Virus record (IMG/VR): IMGVR_UViG_3300024344_000021
Location: 1 to 51,935 of that record
Strand: one strand, 5' to 3'
DNA: 51,935 bases
From: a virus
The translations under genes and the position numbers were made by a program. How positions within the stretch are numbered: position 1 is the first letter of the stretch; each line of letters begins with the position of its first letter. A model generated the notes under the pieces. That model searched no databases, had not been told where the DNA came from, and saw nothing but the letters and a program-made list of their open reading frames with translations. Shown here in pieces: positions 59 to 36,283 of this stretch.

Positions 59-624
59 AGTTAATCAAACCTAACTCTGTCATCAGAAATAAATGTTGGA
101 ACAGTCCCTATTAAATTTTCCCTCATACTTTTTAATCCTTTTCTATAATCTTCTAAGGCAAAAGCAGCCATTTGAGGGTTGTCTTTAAATTGATGTGTGT
201 AATATCTAGCTTTAGATAATATTACTGTTTTATATAAATCAGGAAAAACTATAGCATCACTATGTGCAGATAGTTGTGTAGGAAGGTCATAAGCAAAAAA
301 CCAAACCTTATAAACTTTATCGGGTATAGGACTTAATCCAAACTTTCTAGAATCTGGACTTCTAATAACAAGATTAGGTTCTCCTCCTACTGCTTGATCA
401 GCATCATCAGCATTTTCTCTAGCCCTTCTAAAGTCTTTCCATTTTTCTATAGTTACAAATCTTAAATTTTTAGAAACGTAAGGTGCTGATTGACCACTTA
501 CACCCACTGTAGTTAAATAAAAATTATCCCAATCTATAGAGCCATAGTCATTTATTATAGATGAACTAGCAGCTTTTAATTCATACCATCTTGTACCTGC
601 TACAGTATCTACTGATACATTACC
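1..624. repeat. terminal overlap, left copy
   Basis: Bases 1-624 match 51312-51935 without gaps. The first 99 bases are identical. After that I count 18 substitutions, most of them synonymous in the tail adaptor gene. This is what a circularly closed assembly of a mixed population would give; a true direct terminal repeat of a virion genome would normally be identical. Confidence 0.9.
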
Positions 625-831
625 ATACATAGGATCGGTAGCACCGCTTTCACCTGTAGCTAAAAAAGGCCACTGAGGTTCTTCATTAACTATATCTAAG
701 TATGATCTATTAATACAATCTTTAGCGTGTGCTTGAATACCTACAGCACTAGAAAAAGTTGAGGAAGTTAATACTACTTCATTTAACTCCCTTAATAGTT
801 CATTTGTTAATTCTAAAAATGTAGTAGCCAT
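61..831 (-). CDS. tail adaptor / tail tubular protein A-like
   Basis: A 256-residue protein without signal peptide or membrane segment. It begins MATTFLELTNELLRELNEV and has the size of a podovirus head-to-tail adaptor of the gp11 (tail tubular A) type that joins portal and nozzle. The assignment rests on size, on the style of the N-terminus and on position: downstream of portal, scaffold and capsid and directly followed, across the circular join, by the nozzle-like gene at 49762-51369 whose start codon lies 2 bases past this stop. A second, slightly different partial copy lies at 51372-51935. Family membership is recalled, not computed. Confidence 0.7.
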   Translation of the reverse strand: MATTFLELTNELLRELNEVVLTSSTFSSAVGIQAHAKDCINRSYLDIVNEEPQWPFLATGESGATDPMYGNVSVDTVAGTRWYELKAASSSIINDYGSIDWDNFYLTTVGVSGQSAPYVSKNLRFVTIEKWKDFRRARENADDADQAVGGEPNLVIRSPDSRKFGLSPIPDKVYKVWFFAYDLPTQLSAHSDAIVFPDLYKTVILSKARYYTHQFKDNPQMAAFALEDYRKGLKSMRENLIGTVPTFISDDRVRFD

Positions 832-833
832 AA

Positions 834-1004
834 TTATTTTTTAAGCTCTTTATGATTTACGGGATTATTAGGATTTCTAAAAACACGATCATAATTATCA
901 TCGTATTTCTTTTTATCCTCACCTTTCATATAGGCAGCACGAATTTTAACTTTACCATTAACATTAAATCGCACTGGATTTTTTTCACTTCCTATTTGTG
1001 GCAT
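834..1004 (-). CDS. small basic protein, unknown function
   Basis: A 56-codon reading frame from ATG at 1004 to TAA at 834, just upstream of the tail adaptor start at 831. The product is Lys/Asn-rich (starts MPQIGSEKNP, ends HKELKK), with no membrane segment. The leader has a GGAAATAT-type ribosome site. I do not recognise the family. It sits in the late operon between the pqqA-like gene and the tail adaptor with only short gaps, which supports expression. Confidence 0.6.
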   Translation of the reverse strand: MPQIGSEKNPVRFNVNGKVKIRAAYMKGEDKKKYDDNYDRVFRNPNNPVNHKELKK

Positions 1005-1015
1005 ACTATATTTCC

Positions 1016-1087
1016 TTATCTATTGCTGTAATACATTGTGATTTCAAAACCAAGTCTAACATTTTCATAAGTAGGTTTAGTCCACAT
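1016..1087 (-). CDS. pqqA: PqqA-like precursor peptide of pyrroloquinoline quinone
   Basis: A 23-codon gene from ATG at 1087 to TAA at 1016. The peptide begins [14 protein letters not shown] and ends EITMYYSNR. Bacterial PqqA peptides of the Klebsiella and Pseudomonas kind are also about 23 residues, begin MW-K-P, carry R-x-G before the core and end -SNR or similar. Their Glu15 and Tyr19 are cross-linked by PqqE and become the PQQ cofactor. Here Glu15 and Tyr19 stand at exactly those positions (E-I-T-M-Y). A strong ribosome site (GGAGG at 1096-1100, 8 bases before ATG) makes expression likely. No PqqB, C, D or E gene is present, so maturation would need the host. The gene lies directly after a terminator hairpin behind the capsid gene. 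Chance matching is the main alternative but is unlikely given length, motif and ribosome site together. Confidence 0.85.
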
Positions 1088-1100
1088 AATAATTACCTCC

Positions 1101-1133
1101 AATAAAATTAAAGGGGGCATATTTCAGCCCCCC
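1101..1133 (-). terminator. rho-independent terminator after the major capsid gene
   Basis: On the minus strand a six-base GC stem (GGGGGC, loop of 8, GCCCCC; plus-strand arms 1113-1118 and 1127-1132) is followed by a T-rich run. It stands 8 bases past the capsid stop. It probably trims capsid transcripts and lowers expression of the genes behind it. Confidence 0.8.
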
Positions 1134-1140
1134 GTAATAT

Positions 1141-2130
1141 TTAGTCAATGCCGTAGAACGCAGAAACTAATGCCTCTGGACGTAGTACTTTAGCTCCATA
1201 TACATGAAGACCTCGTACTATATCACCAAAGCTATCAGGATCACGAATTACTTCAGTACTAGTAATAGTCTGAGCAGTTGCCGTAGATGACATATGACCT
1301 GCAATACACTTACCTGCTGCATTAGAGGTAGAAGCAATATTGTTAGTCTTGTACATATCAAATCCACGCAACTTACCAGTTGATACTAGTCCGTTACGGA
1401 TTGAACCTTGACCTGCGTTGTAATCAACAGACAGAAGTTTTGAACTGCTTTGTACAAGCTGCTCATAAAACTCTGGGTTTGCTGCGAACCAACGACCTTC
1501 TTCTGGAACATTTTGCTCATCAAGAAGACGAGCCATGTGTGAAAGAACGTCAATAGGATCATGCTCACCAGAAGCAAAACCTATGTCTAGATTACCAGTA
1601 CCATCAAAAGTACCTGCTGCTAGATCAGTTGCGTTGTCAGAACCTAAAATGTGATTAGGGCTAGAAGCTGATACACCTGCAAACATTACTGCAAGTACAC
1701 CTTGATCAAACGCATCTTTAATTGAATAAGCTGCTGAAGATGCAGCAACGTCACGAAAGTTAACGTGTGACATATTAGTTTCAATATCATCTACGATAAA
1801 CTTAAATGCGTTTGCTGTATCAACAACCAAATTAACTTCTTGGTCTGTCAACTTAGTCGCAGTTACGTCTTGTCCCCTTTCATACTGATAAACAGTAATT
1901 TCAGGTTCTTTGATAATTCTTACAGAATCACCGTATGCCGCAATCTCTCCCGCATAATCTGTATTAGTAATTGCTTCTACTACAGATGATTTTCTAAAAA
2001 AGTTTAAAACAGTTTTAGAATAAATTGCAGGTAAGAAATACGAGTTTGTTTGACCCGATACGGAATTTGCAAAGTTTGCATTAGTATCCGTAGACGGTTC
2101 AAAATATTGGTCAGATTGATTATAAGCCAT
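1141..2130 (-). CDS. major capsid protein
   Basis: A 329-residue protein following the scaffold gene by 20 bases, the canonical place of the head protein. It shows the style of podovirus HK97-fold capsid subunits: a short variable N-arm, then a segment with YGDSVRIIKEPEITVYQY and a VDDIETNMSHVNFRDVAASS stretch, ending in a beta-rich domain with LHVYGAKVLRPEALVSAFYG. A strong terminator follows at once, consistent with the most heavily expressed late gene. The fold is inferred from family resemblance and position. Confidence 0.88.
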   Translation of the reverse strand: MAYNQSDQYFEPSTDTNANFANSVSGQTNSYFLPAIYSKTVLNFFRKSSVVEAITNTDYAGEIAAYGDSVRIIKEPEITVYQYERGQDVTATKLTDQEVNLVVDTANAFKFIVDDIETNMSHVNFRDVAASSAAYSIKDAFDQGVLAVMFAGVSASSPNHILGSDNATDLAAGTFDGTGNLDIGFASGEHDPIDVLSHMARLLDEQNVPEEGRWFAANPEFYEQLVQSSSKLLSVDYNAGQGSIRNGLVSTGKLRGFDMYKTNNIASTSNAAGKCIAGHMSSTATAQTITSTEVIRDPDSFGDIVRGLHVYGAKVLRPEALVSAFYGID

Positions 2131-4838: not shown

Positions 4839-4994
4839 CTAATTAGGTTTAGCAACCTCACCACCCATTGAGTACTTCATTTTGCCACCACCCATCATTT
4901 TCTTTTTATTCATACCACCCATCATCATACCTTTTTTCTTTTTATTCATACCGCCCATCATTTTCTTTTTTCTATCACCATAGTGCTTTGGCAT
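4839..4994 (-). CDS. Met/Lys/Gly-repeat small protein
   Basis: A 51-codon frame from ATG at 4994 to TAG at 4839, filling the gap between two conserved genes. The product is low-complexity: three repeats of a KKKMMGGMN-like unit between an N-terminal MPKHYGDR and a C-terminal MKYSMGGEVAKPN. The SMGGEV motif resembles GG motifs in the large late proteins. The frame is open end to end and closely spaced, so it is probably translated. Function unknown. Confidence 0.55.
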   Translation of the reverse strand: MPKHYGDRKKKMMGGMNKKKKGMMMGGMNKKKMMGGGKMKYSMGGEVAKPN

Positions 4995-26899: not shown

Positions 26900-27115
26900 A
26901 TGGACAATAACCAAGAAGCAAACTTAGTATCTTTCAAAGTAGTACTCACAAGGGACGGTACAATTATGACTGAGTTTAGTCATCTTCCTTTAGGTCATGC
27001 TGAGAAAATATTTCACAAAGAAGACTTTGATGTTATATCTAGGATTATATCTGAGGGTAGAAAAAAACTAGAACCTATGCACGAATACATTGAAAAAGAA
27101 ATACAATCTATTTAG
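26900..27115 (+). CDS. small protein ending the plus-strand block
   Basis: A 71-residue protein from ATG 26900, 4 bases after nrdB; a TTG at 26882 would overlap nrdB and is less likely. The sequence (MDNNQEANLVSFKVVLTRDG) is acidic and looks beta-alpha. Not recognised. Its last 8 bases overlap the opposing gene at 27108, so the two blocks converge tail to tail with no visible terminator. Confidence 0.6.
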   Translation: MDNNQEANLVSFKVVLTRDGTIMTEFSHLPLGHAEKIFHKEDFDVISRIISEGRKKLEPMHEYIEKEIQSI

Positions 27116-27461
27116 TAGCTTTGTGGTGCATAAATGCGGTAGCTCCCATGTATGTACCTACAATACCGCACATAGAAAAATAAAAAAGCCCCAACAAATC
27201 TGACAGAGCATTCACTCTACTATCAGATATGAGGGGCGTAAATAAAACTACCGTAGTTACTACCATGATAATGATAGCTAACCAAGCCATCATCTTTTGA
27301 GCCTCAGACTTTTCTTCTCTTAGTTCTAAGTCTACCATTTCTTTAGCTCGATCTAGTTCTTCATCACTGATGATGCCATCATTGTTTAGATCAAACTTCT
27401 CGTACTTAGACTGTAGTTCTAGTTTCTTTGGAGACATCTTAGTGCGTGTTTCCCTCACCAT
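27108..27461 (-). CDS. EF-hand membrane protein
   Basis: A 117-residue protein with one EF-hand near residues 24-35 (DLNNDGIISDEE: Asp, Asn, Asp, Gly, Ile, Asp/Glu in the loop positions), a charged helix, then two membrane segments (MMAWLAIIIMVVTTVVLFT and a LGLFYFSMCGIVGTYMGATA region). Calcium binding is expected on the soluble side. I recall EF-hand membrane proteins near lysis genes of marine phages, without a proven role; a lysis regulator or virion membrane factor is possible. Start could also be the Met at residue 9. Confidence 0.65.
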   Translation of the reverse strand: MVRETRTKMSPKKLELQSKYEKFDLNNDGIISDEELDRAKEMVDLELREEKSEAQKMMAWLAIIIMVVTTVVLFTPLISDSRVNALSDLLGLFYFSMCGIVGTYMGATAFMHHKATK

Positions 27462-27619: not shown

Positions 27620-28096
27620 TTATTCTCCTACTCCCATTACGATGTTAACTATAAATCCTAGAAATCCTATTCCTATTAAAACTACAGAACCTATTAGTAA
27701 CATATCTAAAAGAAATTTTTTATGTTCTGCTTGTCGCCTAGCTACGGCTAGTCTTCTTTGTCTTTCTTTTTGTCTAGCTCTCATCATAGATTTATAAACA
27801 TCTCCCTGACCAGAATAGACAAATAGTTCTCTTAATTGTTTTTCTAACTCTTTAGCTTTATGTTCTGCTAGTGCTACCTCAAGTGCATGAGCCTCTACAG
27901 ACTGAGCATCAAACATTTTTTTCCCTATGGGAGTATGATCTGAATCTGCTTTAGCTTTATCTATTTTGTCTTTTGCATCAAAGAATTGTGCAAACTGAGA
28001 TGATAACTCTTGGGTGTCCTTACCTAATGCAAGACCTTTTTTTATTACTGTAATTGCTTTTGAGGCAGCAGCAATGGCTACTGTTACTTCTATCAT
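27620..28096 (-). CDS. coiled-coil protein with C-terminal membrane anchor
   Basis: A 158-residue protein: an N-terminal Ala-rich amphipathic region (VTVAIAAASKAITVIKKGLA), a long charged coiled coil with Arg-rich end (RARQKERQRRLAVARRQAEH), and a membrane segment near residues 130-153 (MLLIGSVVLIGIGFLGFIV). It resembles unassigned proteins in marine phage lysis or virion regions. With the lipoprotein gene next door it could belong to an envelope-disrupting pair, but this is speculative. Confidence 0.55.
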   Translation of the reverse strand: MIEVTVAIAAASKAITVIKKGLALGKDTQELSSQFAQFFDAKDKIDKAKADSDHTPIGKKMFDAQSVEAHALEVALAEHKAKELEKQLRELFVYSGQGDVYKSMMRARQKERQRRLAVARRQAEHKKFLLDMLLIGSVVLIGIGFLGFIVNIVMGVGE

Positions 28097-28113
28097 TACT
28101 GCCCCCTTTAAAT

Positions 28114-28296
28114 TTAGTATCTTCTAAATAAATCTTCAGCAGCACAGTGATCCATAGCTCTGCAAATCCTTACGTTTTGCATATATAATTGTTGATCTAT
28201 ATAGTTCCATTCAGGATACTCTGACATCTGCATACTGACTTTGCTTAACGAACATCCTGTAAGTGATAGTAAAATTATTATTAATAGTCTACTCAT
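28114..28296 (-). CDS. small lipoprotein (outer-membrane spanin candidate)
   Basis: A 60-residue protein with a clear lipoprotein signal: MSRLLIIILLSLTGCS, lipobox LTGC with Cys15 as the acylated residue. The mature part is about 45 residues with two more Cys. Small late lipoproteins near endolysin genes are often outer-membrane spanin subunits, but the typical Pro-rich stretch is missing. It overlaps the next gene by 4 bases. Confidence 0.6.
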   Translation of the reverse strand: MSRLLIIILLSLTGCSLSKVSMQMSEYPEWNYIDQQLYMQNVRICRAMDHCAAEDLFRRY

Positions 28297-29579
28297 TGTC
28301 CTGCTATCATTCTCCTGTTTTCTCTTTCAGTTAAAATTTCTTGGTAGCCTTTTTCATCAAGATGGGTTACTGCTATCCAAGCATGAGTCATTTCATCTCC
28401 TGTTCTGCTGCCTCCATACACCCACTGATCTGCATCAGGGTTGTTAGGATTATCTTCAGTGTTGTCATACCACTGTTTAAGAACTAGTACTGCTCCTGTT
28501 GGTATCAGAGGTGCAAAGTCTGGATCGTATATGTGGCTATGATGCCAAGTTGCACTCCAGTTAGATACCTGACTAATCTGTTCTGTCACCCCAGTATCAG
28601 GGTAAAAGATTTCAAAGCTTGCTGCATTCATTCTAAGGTGTCCGTGAGGTTGCCATGAATCAATGCGAACAGGGTGATCAAAGGAGTGGAATCCTTGAGT
28701 CATGTGATAACCATGAGGAGGAATAACAATATCATCTTGATCGCTTATCCTGTAAAGCTTGAGGTCTTGAGCATATGTAAGTTCTTTAGATTCCTCTGGC
28801 GAGTATAGCCACAGTCCTATCTCTACAACATTATCTTCAATAATAGTTCCGGGTGCTATAGCTCCTAAACCACCGGGGAACATATGAATGTCCCAAGCTA
28901 TCTCAGAGTTAGCAGGTATAGTACGACAGACACCTTCCGGTACTATCTCGCCCCACTTACCCATAGCATACTCTGTCAGCATCCCATACCTCTCACCATC
29001 AACATTAACGGAGCTATTGGCATGATGCACTACACTCTTAGCATCACCTCTTGGTTTAACTTGAATAGCTTTAATACATCTATCCTCTGTCAATCCACTA
29101 GCTACGTTATGTTTATGCCATAGATCATTACCACTGGCAGGTATATCTATAGGAATAGAAGGGATAACCATAGTAGGCTCTCCAAAGTCTTCGTAGAAGT
29201 TCCACTGGTTAGGGTCTGAGAGATTAGCAGAGGGGGCTATAACGTCAGTATCGCCATACTCTGACCCAGTGTTTACCCATTCTACTATCGTGGCTATATC
29301 GGCCTCTGAGAGCCTCCAATCACCATGTAATTCCTGTATCCCTATACCCTGATCGTAAGCATATGGAGGCATCTCTCTGTTAGCTACCTTCATCTGTATC
29401 AAAGGACTCCACGGTCTAACTTGTTCATAGGTTTCAAACTGCATTGGGCCTATACCACCATCACGATGACAGACTACACAGTTGTTATTGATTATTTCAG
29501 CAACATCATCTACATAAGTAGGCACTCCATGAGCCATAGAACTTAGTAGTAATGTTCCGCTTAGTAGTAAATTTTTCAT
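28293..29579 (-). CDS. secreted cytochrome c / copper type II monooxygenase-like fusion
   Basis: A 428-residue exported protein. Signal peptide about 1-18 (MKNLLLSGTLLLSSMAHG). A cytochrome c domain has the heme site CVVCH at 34-38 and a probable axial Met70 (REMPPY). The larger part matches ascorbate-dependent copper type II monooxygenases (PHM/DBH-like): paired His185-His186 (VVHHANSS), His232 (IHMF), His312-x-His314 (PHGHLRM) and Met397 in GDEM, the expected ligands of the CuH and CuM sites. Cys168 and Cys218 may form a disulfide. Bacterial proteins with this fusion exist but their substrate is unknown. It sits among lysis and virion genes, just after the endolysin, as a likely auxiliary metabolic gene acting in the periplasm. 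Confidence 0.88.
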   Translation of the reverse strand: MKNLLLSGTLLLSSMAHGVPTYVDDVAEIINNNCVVCHRDGGIGPMQFETYEQVRPWSPLIQMKVANREMPPYAYDQGIGIQELHGDWRLSEADIATIVEWVNTGSEYGDTDVIAPSANLSDPNQWNFYEDFGEPTMVIPSIPIDIPASGNDLWHKHNVASGLTEDRCIKAIQVKPRGDAKSVVHHANSSVNVDGERYGMLTEYAMGKWGEIVPEGVCRTIPANSEIAWDIHMFPGGLGAIAPGTIIEDNVVEIGLWLYSPEESKELTYAQDLKLYRISDQDDIVIPPHGYHMTQGFHSFDHPVRIDSWQPHGHLRMNAASFEIFYPDTGVTEQISQVSNWSATWHHSHIYDPDFAPLIPTGAVLVLKQWYDNTEDNPNNPDADQWVYGGSRTGDEMTHAWIAVTHLDEKGYQEILTERENRRMIAGQ

Positions 29580-32552: not shown

Positions 32553-35500
32553 TAGTCTTCCTCATCAGGTGTGTTTAGTAATGTCCTACTCATGTCAGAA
32601 TAAATTTTTTCAAGTTCTCTTTCTATTGCATCATATTCTTTAATAGTTCCTTTTTTTGGAGTATCGCCTACTTCAGAAGCAATCTCTCGTAAGAATGGAA
32701 TATTAATATCTTCAGGAATAAATCTACCTTTTAATAATTCTCTGGAGTCATCTCTACTTATTCCTAAATCTTGTAATTGATTTAATATTTCTCTATCACT
32801 TCTAAAATACTGAGAAGCTTGTAGATTACGATATAATTCTTTTTGAATTTCATATCTTGATCGTTGTCTATCTTTATACTGTTGCGTAAGAGTTCCAAAA
32901 CTTTCTCTGTAGTTTGGTTCTGTTTCTGTAAGACTAGACATTTTATTTCTGTAATCAATTATTTTAAAATTAAGTTGTTGTTCTGGATCAAACTCTGTCC
33001 ATCTAACTCCTGTTGCTAAAGCTTTAACTTCATTACCTAAATCATAAAGAGGTTTTCCAGTATACGGATTACGTTCTTCATCTGCTGCAAGTATCATTCT
33101 TTCAGCACTCTCAAGTGTTCCCGGCAAAAGATTATCTAACAAATGATAACCTACATCTCCTACTTTATCTAAGCTAGTAGCATTAGGAGAAAACAAAACT
33201 TTTCCATCTGGAGTTCTACCATTAGGATTATTTACAGCAAAGTATATATCAGTTACAGTTTTAGTAAAAATTTCTTCTGACACAAAAGGAGCAAGTAAAG
33301 GTTTTGCTCCTTCTACTATCATATTAAATCCTGTTTCAATTACATCTTTATCTTCCATTCTTCCTTTTTGTAATTCTCGATAAGCAGAAATTATAGGTTC
33401 TTTTACTGTGTTATAAGCATCTAAATACTTTGTATCAGTTACATAAATTTTTCCTGTATCTTCATCTTGCCTCCATAACCTTACATTCTCAGAGCCACTC
33501 CACGGAGTTTCTGAAAGAACTGTAGCTGATTTACGTTGATCATCTGACCAACCTAATGAAGATGCCGTTATTTCCCCTGCTGCATCAAAGCCTATTGCGG
33601 TAGCAGATAAACCTATGCCGCGCATAACTCCTCTTCCTGCTAAAACTTTATTACCTGATCCAATTTCTTTAGCAGTTTGTCTAAATATATTATATGTAGT
33701 TCTTAGTATTTCGGCAGGAAAAGAAACAAACGAACCTATAGGTAAGTTTCTCAAAGCTTTAATGCCCGGAGGAACTCTGTCATAGTTTGGCATAGTGTTT
33801 TTTACTATGTCGGCTGCTTCTAATTCTAAAGATTCTAATTTTCTGCTGCTACCATACGCTCTCTTTAACCAATTTAATTCGCTATTAAAAGAATTAATTT
33901 TAAAAAGATCATCAGTGCCTATATAAAGTTTTTCAGCACCTCTAGAAACTTTATTAGAAAATCCTGCCATAAAATTATCTACACTAGTAGCATCAATACC
34001 TTCATTTATTAATGCTCTAAAATCACCTACTCTAACATTAGTATTTATTATTCCAAGATTTAAATACTTTTCATGCAACTCATTTAATGCTTTATCACCA
34101 CTTAATTTTGCTTCTTGACCTAAAACTCTTAAATTATTTATAGCACTTTTTTCTGACATAACCCCTAAAGAAAAAGGATTCAAACCATTTGCTAAACCAA
34201 ACTGCACTCCACCTAAAAAGTTTCTCATGTGGGTTGTCCAGTTAAAAACTGTAGCTGCTCTATTTGCAAAAGATTTAATAGATAAGAAATTTTTATAAAA
34301 ACTATTAGCTACATCAGGATCACCAAACATAGAAATTTCTTTTTCCATAATAACTTTTTCCATGTTCTCAGTAGTCCACTTACCATCTAATTTTTTACTA
34401 CCTGTATTTTTTAGTTGAACTAACCCATCCATACCTTCAGGTATATCTTTAAAAAGCCAACCTTGTTTATTTCCTATTTTATTCATGTCATCTAAAAATC
34501 TAGCTCTTTCATAAAACTTAGACATTTTATCTACAGAAATAATAAGAGCATCTTCAGGACTTTTAACTTCTCCTAATAGTTCTCTTATGGGTTGTCCTAT
34601 ATCTTTTCTTTGTCTAAATATTTTAGATTGTATACCCTTTACTACATCAAATTTCTTTTGAGCCATAATACTTCTAACAATAGAAGCTGCTCTATCATCT
34701 AAATTTGTTTTTACTTTATAAGTTTTACCTTTCTTTAACGCTTCATCAAGACGAAATGCTTCATTTTCTTGAAGTATTTTTAACATATGTTGTTCTGCTT
34801 TAGCTATAACTTGAGCAGTAGGAATAAATTCTTTGTCTTCAAATTGCCTGTAAGACCTTCTTAAATAATTATTTAAGTTATTATCTATTGTGTCTTTAAT
34901 TTTTTTATTAGGAGCAAATTGTCTTAGCTCTAAACTTAATTCATCTACTAAGTTTCGTGCTTCTACTACACTTTCAGCAACTTCAGTATTTAATTTAAAA
35001 TTAGATGTTAGATAATTAGTAAGTTCCTCACCTTCTAAATTTTTAAAAGCATTTTTATTAGCTTCACTAGTAGAAGTTAAAGCATCATAAACTCTATCTA
35101 TTGTATTTGTATCATCTGTATTTTTTACAGCATTATTTATAGCTTGTTGAAGTCTACCTGAAATATGTTGAGAACGATTCCTATACTTACGAGCAGCCTG
35201 TTGACTTTGTTCAAAAGCATCTTGACCTGCATAAGTATTAAAACCTCTAGACTGAGTAAACTTTTGCCATAGTCCTTTAATAGTACCTTCTTGATTAAAC
35301 ACCTGTGCTTGTTCAGTAGCATCATCTACAACTTTAGAACTTGATAGTGTTGTTGTACCTGTAGGAGTTTCAGCTTTAGTTCGTTTTAAACCTTCTACTG
35401 CTTTGTCTACTATTTCTTCTTTAGATAACTCATCTATATTTTTACCAAGACTTCCTGAAATTACTCCACCAAGACCACCTAAAACTATTTCAAGTGGTAA

Positions 35501-36283
35501 ATTACCAATCAACATTTTAAGTCTTTTTTCTGCATCACTATCATCTTCTTCAGGAGCTTGTAAGTATTCTCCTATTCCTAACAATGCAGAATCAGGTATG
35601 TCTGGAAACAAAGAAGAAATAATACTCCCTTCATTTGGGTTACTAATCCATTGATCAGTGGCTACTCCAGTAGCTATACCTGCTGCTGTATCCGCAGATA
35701 TTTTATATTTTCTAGTTAATTCTCTAAATGCTCTAGGAGAACTAGTAGCTAATCTACGCATCCCATTTAAAATACCTATGCCTCCTGCTACATAACTACT
35801 AAGATTTAATATAGCTCCTCCTGTAGTTTCTGTTCTTGTAGCATAACCATCTCTATCAACTATAGTACTCAACTCTTCTGTTGTAGGATTTACTAAAGAA
35901 CCTATAGCAGAATCATCAGCAGCTTTAGCTCTAGCTGTTCTTACTCTCCCCATACGTTCTCCTATGCTTAAATCATAGAAGTCATCCCCGTATAAATCTT
36001 CGGCTGTTTTATTTATATTTAAAGCGGCATTTGCAGGAACAACTGCTTCAAGAAAATCAGAAGCTTGTCCCACTGTACTTCTGTACACTCTTTTAACATC
36101 TCTCCCAAAACCACCATACTCTTCTGGCTTTTTAGGTTCAACACGATCTTCAAAAACAGTAGGAGGTAATCTATTTGGAGAGTTCATATATTCTTCATAC
36201 TCTTCAAAAGTTCTTATATCAATAGGAACATTATCTCTAGTTTCACCATTTTCAAATGTAACTGTTCTTGTTGGTAAAGGCAT
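32552..36283 (-). CDS. giant internal virion protein (ejection-type)
   Basis: A 1243-residue, mostly helical protein, the largest in the window. It contains Gly-rich hydrophobic patches (LPLEIVLGGLGGVISGSLG near residue 265; GGIGILNGM near 165) and long charged helices, as in the ejected inner-core proteins of podoviruses that cross the host envelope. No enzymatic motif such as a lytic transglycosylase Glu-Ser is obvious to me. It overlaps its downstream neighbour by one base and is followed closely on the other side. Confidence 0.65.
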   Translation of the reverse strand: MPLPTRTVTFENGETRDNVPIDIRTFEEYEEYMNSPNRLPPTVFEDRVEPKKPEEYGGFGRDVKRVYRSTVGQASDFLEAVVPANAALNINKTAEDLYGDDFYDLSIGERMGRVRTARAKAADDSAIGSLVNPTTEELSTIVDRDGYATRTETTGGAILNLSSYVAGGIGILNGMRRLATSSPRAFRELTRKYKISADTAAGIATGVATDQWISNPNEGSIISSLFPDIPDSALLGIGEYLQAPEEDDSDAEKRLKMLIGNLPLEIVLGGLGGVISGSLGKNIDELSKEEIVDKAVEGLKRTKAETPTGTTTLSSSKVVDDATEQAQVFNQEGTIKGLWQKFTQSRGFNTYAGQDAFEQSQQAARKYRNRSQHISGRLQQAINNAVKNTDDTNTIDRVYDALTSTSEANKNAFKNLEGEELTNYLTSNFKLNTEVAESVVEARNLVDELSLELRQFAPNKKIKDTIDNNLNNYLRRSYRQFEDKEFIPTAQVIAKAEQHMLKILQENEAFRLDEALKKGKTYKVKTNLDDRAASIVRSIMAQKKFDVVKGIQSKIFRQRKDIGQPIRELLGEVKSPEDALIISVDKMSKFYERARFLDDMNKIGNKQGWLFKDIPEGMDGLVQLKNTGSKKLDGKWTTENMEKVIMEKEISMFGDPDVANSFYKNFLSIKSFANRAATVFNWTTHMRNFLGGVQFGLANGLNPFSLGVMSEKSAINNLRVLGQEAKLSGDKALNELHEKYLNLGIINTNVRVGDFRALINEGIDATSVDNFMAGFSNKVSRGAEKLYIGTDDLFKINSFNSELNWLKRAYGSSRKLESLELEAADIVKNTMPNYDRVPPGIKALRNLPIGSFVSFPAEILRTTYNIFRQTAKEIGSGNKVLAGRGVMRGIGLSATAIGFDAAGEITASSLGWSDDQRKSATVLSETPWSGSENVRLWRQDEDTGKIYVTDTKYLDAYNTVKEPIISAYRELQKGRMEDKDVIETGFNMIVEGAKPLLAPFVSEEIFTKTVTDIYFAVNNPNGRTPDGKVLFSPNATSLDKVGDVGYHLLDNLLPGTLESAERMILAADEERNPYTGKPLYDLGNEVKALATGVRWTEFDPEQQLNFKIIDYRNKMSSLTETEPNYRESFGTLTQQYKDRQRSRYEIQKELYRNLQASQYFRSDREILNQLQDLGISRDDSRELLKGRFIPEDINIPFLREIASEVGDTPKKGTIKEYDAIERELEKIYSDMSRTLLNTPDEED

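Follow-up and report, generated by a model that had tools for sequence, protein, structure and literature searches.

The capsid-tail locus

The window, by which we mean the whole stretch of DNA analysed, is a virus record of 51,935 bases. A 23-codon frame identified as pqqA lies between its capsid and tail genes. The features of this region are as follows.

1141..2130, minus strand: major capsid protein gene (phrog_267 major head protein, E 2e-70), upstream neighbour of pqqA
1112..1133, minus strand: terminator-like hairpin of the rho-independent type (z -2.75), between the capsid gene and pqqA
1088..1100, minus strand: ribosome-binding region of pqqA, with GGAGG 8 bases before the ATG (read from the sequence itself)
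1016..1087, minus strand: pqqA, 23 codons and a stop (PF08042, TIGR02107); the same peptide occurs in sister phages
834..1004, minus strand: conserved 56-aa frame, downstream neighbour of pqqA
61..831, minus strand: tail protein gene (phrog_10775, E 5e-70)

The frame starts with the ATG at 1087 and its stop codon ends at 1016, on the minus strand; no sensible peptide was found in a plus-strand reading of 1016-1087. Residues W2, K4, P5, R11, G13, E15 and Y19 are present. Thus, the exact 23-codon frame, the MW-x-K-P start, R11-x-G13, Glu15 and Tyr19, the strong GGAGG site and the placement between capsid and tail genes, all proposed in the initial annotation, were found as claimed. The frame encodes a free-standing short peptide with its own ribosome site, of a length expected for the class (approximately 22-24 residues), and the PQQ-forming pair, Glu and Tyr, stand three residues apart. 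Both curated PqqA models matched strongly: Pfam PF08042 with 39.4 bits (cut-off 21.1, E 5e-10) and the NCBI equivalog model TIGR02107 with 44.2 bits (cut-off 20, E 1e-11). PF08042 gave no match in any of 14 control genomes. A chance frame was rejected on the basis of these scores, both above cut-off, and of the controls. By the two curated models and its near identity to marine bacterial PqqA, the window peptide is identified as PqqA. As a host-like metabolic gene situated in a virus record between capsid and tail genes, pqqA is a putative auxiliary metabolic gene.

The cultivated phages nearest to the window by capsid protein are the pelagiphages HTVC115P (60%) and HTVC103P/104P (49%), followed by those of the HMO-2011 type (45%). 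Of 80 viral contigs whose capsid genes are closely related to that of the window, six have pqqA immediately after the capsid terminator; in the remainder, the terminator runs directly to the 56-aa frame, or another short frame occupies the slot. A hairpin like that at 1112-1133, a feature absent from the initial annotation, is kept in capsid relatives both with and without pqqA. The six contigs with pqqA have two peptide types, that of the window and MKWSKPTYQK[IL]RLGFEVTMYFKQV, and a later, larger contig set contained further PqqA types at the same capsid-tail slot. These bacterial-like types at one slot differ between phages, and all key residues are kept. The window's exact peptide occupies the same slot in three long, near-complete sister records (46-53 kb; capsid 97-99% identical). 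Five long records of sister clades (44-52 kb) all lack pqqA.

Other small frames were observed nearby. In L140, L148 and L154, a very short Cys-rich frame with a ribosome site (for example MCECKNCTCK or MSCTNKSCECKHCTCK) lies just after the capsid gene, in the place of pqqA. In the window, a 51-aa frame between the portal and capsid genes (4839-4994, minus strand) contains Met/Lys/Gly-rich repeats (MMGGMNKKKKGMMMGGMNKKKMMGGGK).

Bacterial relatives and candidate host

A gamma-type PqqA pattern was scanned across one genome per bacterial and archaeal species. The 32 loci found are nearly all from marine Gammaproteobacteria, and other pqq genes lie nearby in 29 of them. The window pqqA shares 65 of 69 bases and 22 of 23 residues with that of L236, a marine single-cell genome titled uncultured Pseudohongiella sp. 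AG-439-P13, in which pqqB lies beside pqqA. It shares 63 of 69 bases with the pqqA of L243, which also has pqqB, C, D and E. From the similarity to these two genomes, on which the host assignment rests, we infer that the window pqqA is a phage-borne copy of a host gene and that the host is of the 'Pseudohongiella' type. A PQQ alcohol dehydrogenase model gave 38 and 41 matched stretches (stretches, not genes) in approximately 2 Mb of these candidate-host genomes (G001 and G002).

The window peptide resembles classical bacterial PqqA (Acinetobacter type) in length, in the MW-x-K-P start and in the R-x-G-x-E-[VI]-T-x-Y core. Unlike the classical gene, it stands alone in the phage genome rather than before pqqBCDE. 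Stand-alone pqqA copies exist in bacteria too (PMC9851590), and an operon, though common in bacteria, is not required for a peptide to be PqqA.

Occurrence and constraint in viral sequences

Matches to a degenerate PqqA DNA pattern were identified in at least 120 viral contigs. All of the matches listed have a short frame, and a purine-rich ribosome site precedes nearly all of these copies. A second pattern, in which positions 15 and 19 were left free, likewise matched at least 120 viral contigs; all 120 of the matches listed have both Glu15 and Tyr19. Loss of either residue in related phages, which the initial annotation had named as evidence against its reading, was not seen, and the lack of a significant PqqA-model match, named there too, is contradicted by the strong scores given above. 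The gamma-type pattern matched 110 viral contigs with 40 distinct peptides, nine of the contigs carrying the window's own peptide. The viral contigs with pqqA are related to each other, and none of these counts is of independent events. The gene is under purifying selection (pooled dN/dS 0.078 for 49 distinct 23-codon viral genes, the pairs not being independent).

The genomic settings of viral pqqA are varied. Contexts were defined by flanking genes, as linking loci via shared proteins merged nearly everything; 172 flank combinations were distinguished, of which 24 occur in at least three contigs each. In other phages, pqqA adjoins genes for lysis, recombination and metabolism, and in several it is found among virion genes. 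None of 280 viral pqqA loci has pqqB, C, D or E, compared with 29 positives among the 32 bacterial control loci, and a complete operon (pqqA followed by pqqBCDE) was found at none of the viral loci. Thus, phages repeatedly carry the consumed precursor alone. The same count led us to reject contamination of the viral collection by bacterial pqq operons. Two records titled 'Acinetobacter phage MD-2021a' (CAKLQF020000010.1 and CAKLQH020000055.1) have bacterial-type pqq genes, the longer holding pqqA-E; they resemble pieces of bacterial chromosome and were not counted. Overall, hundreds of viral sequences contain pqqA, and genes for exported copper enzymes are often its neighbours. No PHROGs family covers pqqA.

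One T4-like contig has, on the downstream side of pqqA (L324:4143-4535), a frame with a C-terminal CGCG motif that resembles an A-type iron-sulphur carrier.

Cultivated phages and earlier reports

A tblastn search of 50,697 phage records identified PqqA in one environmental podovirus genome and in nine records of Methylophilales/Methylophilaceae phages (Venkman, MEP301, MEP401, MEP402, P19250A and four Melnitz variants), a tally that leaves out MEP431-434, HIM624-A and Venkman EXVC038S, which are named in the taxonomy. The peptide is annotated in none of these records; the frames fall between annotated genes or are overlapped by a gene on the opposite strand. The papers on MEP301, MEP401/402 and Melnitz report no PQQ gene. 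Thus, the suggestion that such a frame is easily missed by gene callers was borne out: pqqA has been overlooked even in cultivated, published phages because it is only 23 codons long.

The initial annotation knew of no established case in phages, and this has to be corrected. Phage pqqA has been known since 2020, when VP_266, a methylophage population from Lake Baikal, was reported to carry it along with methanol dehydrogenase (Coutinho et al., 2020; PMC7678222), and the window is not the first case. According to the same paper, the metabolic genes that it reports are all absent from phage P19250A; P19250A (KX815270.1) does encode an unannotated PqqA, at 28085-28153 (L006:5001-5069). A PQQ alcohol dehydrogenase, scoring above the model cut-off, is encoded at 34049-35731 of G120, a 72-kb viral contig with methylophage-type pqqA (the record of L066). 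As far as the literature was searched, we found no description of the unannotated pqqA in the nine cultivated methylophage records, of its occurrence among phages of other marine Gammaproteobacteria and in many different genomic settings, or of its linkage with the family of copper monooxygenases described below.

A companion gene for a predicted cytochrome c-copper monooxygenase

A second host-like gene was identified elsewhere in the window.

28293..29579, minus strand: predicted exported protein of 428 aa, with a signal-peptide-like start, a haem site and a predicted PHM/DBM fold

The c-type haem site is N-terminal (C34-x-x-C37-H38). The AlphaFold model (mean pLDDT 71, with lower confidence for the haem domain) resembles PHM in a Foldseek search (E 3e-11) and dopamine beta-hydroxylase (VIA; Z 17.9 over 257 residues, 3.8 A). 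H185, H186, H232, H312, H314 and M397, together with the haem residues, are invariant in all 28 family members. Knowing PHM and the order of the motifs, we take these six residues (His,His,His and His,His,Met) to be the copper ligands. Judged from the structural model, the protein has the two-domain fold of PHM/DBM-like copper monooxygenases. It shares this fold and the six presumed ligands with the peptidylglycine alpha-hydroxylating and dopamine beta-monooxygenases, but differs from them in its N-terminal c-type haem domain, in being bacterial or viral and in its low identity (approximately 13-15%). The window protein has no match to the Pfam models Cu2_monooxygen and Cu2_monoox_C, and therefore resembles these families but is not filed in them; a host relative matches PF03712 weakly (E 0.007).

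Sequence comparison identifies the gene as host-derived, with many paralogues in candidate-host genomes: six of seven genomes of the candidate-host type carry 11-21 matches each, the best being 67-74% identical. The family was found in approximately 95 viral stretches and in none of the cultivated phage records searched, and PHROGs has no family for it. It occurs on 16 of 50 records with gamma-type pqqA, versus none of 50 with methylophage-type pqqA (Fisher 7e-6, uncorrected for relatedness) and none of 35 capsid relatives, mostly without pqqA (Fisher 1e-4, likewise uncorrected). At 24 of the 110 gamma-type viral loci, a family member lies within 180 bases of pqqA, usually in the order oxidase, second oxidase and then, some 10-20 bases on, pqqA. 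The sister records of the window have both pqqA and the companion oxidase. Thus, viral pqqA is linked to the copper oxidase. A more elaborate cassette is encoded at L509:6841-10527 (G092), comprising an oxidase, a cytochrome c (class I, PF00034), a redox fragment, part of an oxidase, pqqA and CopC (PF04234, 58.8 bits).

A further frame of the window (27108-27461, minus strand; 117 aa) matches the EF-hand weakly and below the cut-off (E 7e-4). Other phages have Asp-rich, EF-hand-like frames close to pqqA, at L509:11451 and, directly adjoining the gene, in L024.

Proposed function of viral pqqA

PqqA is made on the ribosome, and PQQ is formed from its Glu and Tyr. Each cofactor uses up one peptide, whereas the enzymes PqqB-E are reusable. 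With PqqD as chaperone, PqqE links these two conserved residues of PqqA to each other (PMC5715301). We infer that the phage gene most likely feeds this consumed precursor to the PqqB-E of the host late in infection. The phage would bring only the consumable part, and the host enzymes would do the rest. If the phage shuts down host expression, PqqB-E may persist as PqqA runs out, and pqqA alone would therefore be the cheapest PQQ supply. Given its position after the capsid gene and terminator, pqqA may be transcribed late, by read-through or from a local promoter. Processing of the peptide by PqqD and PqqE would be expected to raise PQQ and to benefit the phage, with periplasmic PQQ-dependent dehydrogenases and respiration sustained as host expression declines. 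The exported cytochrome c-copper monooxygenases of the same genomes presumably act in the same oxidative chemistry of the periplasm.

Acetic acid bacteria make more PQQ when pqqA or pqqAB is over-expressed (PMC7936290). The gain from pqqAB in Acetobacter was only 29%, versus an eightfold increase with pqqABCDE (PMC7936290), and thus PqqA may not be the limiting component in all hosts. The 51,935 bases of the window yielded no PQQ-dependent enzyme, and the companion copper oxidase is not known to depend on PQQ. The terminator before pqqA could also count against supply, as the transcript level may be low.

The initial annotation had offered a decoy substrate and a structural micro-peptide as alternatives to PQQ supply; of the three, supply is the best supported, and no support was obtained for the other two. 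A decoy would occupy host PqqD/PqqE or PqqB, lowering PQQ and shutting down periplasmic oxidation. Enzymes can be titrated by over-expressed substrate analogues, and the recognition part of PqqA is conserved; yet a decoy need not retain the cross-linked residues, which are both kept throughout the matches listed, and the window peptide is nearly identical to a candidate host's own PqqA. In addition, phages pair pqqA with oxidases or a PQQ dehydrogenase, which would give more oxidation rather than less. The oxidases, the PQQ dehydrogenase of G120 and the methanol dehydrogenase of the Baikal population all support boosting, not blocking, of oxidation, and we consider a decoy highly improbable. 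It is improbable, too, that the peptide is cross-linked by the host for a purpose other than PQQ, for instance as a modified peptide for signalling or for the virion. RiPPs are used in many ways and pqqA lies among virion genes in several phages, but the sequence is that of an ordinary PqqA, the C-terminal region included, and the lysis, recombination and metabolic neighbours of pqqA in other phages indicate that a virion link is not general. A virion micro-peptide was rejected as a general explanation in view of these many non-virion contexts.

Least probable of all, in our estimation, is that pqqA represents a functionless host fragment that was recently picked up. Its near identity to candidate-host DNA and its presence in just six of the 80 close capsid relatives would fit such an origin. 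However, the gene is found again and again by itself, with no pqqB-E, in diverse contexts; its ribosome sites are strong, its dN/dS is 0.08, and the differing sequences at the same slot retain all key residues.

Comparison with known systems

As in the Lake Baikal population VP_266, in which phage-encoded PqqA was proposed to raise PQQ for host oxidation (PMC7678222), the window encodes the precursor peptide. VP_266, however, is a freshwater methylophage of the T4-like kind that encodes methanol dehydrogenase itself, whereas the window comes from a marine relative of the short-tailed phage HTVC115P and has a gamma-type PqqA, with a predicted cytochrome-copper monooxygenase in place of the dehydrogenase. 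Cyanophage auxiliary genes such as psbA supply a host component that runs short as other host machinery stays in place. The component supplied here differs in being a sacrificial cofactor precursor of 23 residues, which places pqqA among the smallest metabolic genes that a phage could carry.

The wide distribution of pqqA, often beside genes for exported copper enzymes, indicates that the viruses bearing it probably keep part of host energy metabolism going during infection. This suggests that periplasmic oxidation of the alcohol type is sustained in infected methylotrophs and PQQ-rich marine Gammaproteobacteria by their phages. A second influence of phages on periplasmic oxidation in the ocean, as yet undescribed, is indicated by the linked cytochrome-copper monooxygenases. 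We lean, by a little, towards the broader view that a periplasmic-oxidation cassette, made up of the sacrificial PQQ precursor and exported cytochrome c-copper monooxygenases (with a separate cytochrome c and CopC in one lineage), has been acquired repeatedly by unrelated phages of aquatic bacteria that use PQQ. Such a cassette would feed the only component of the pathway that is spent stoichiometrically and add an oxidase absent from the cultivated phages searched. Existing isolates that carry pqqA, including MEP301, MEP401/402, Venkman, Melnitz and P19250A, allow direct testing.
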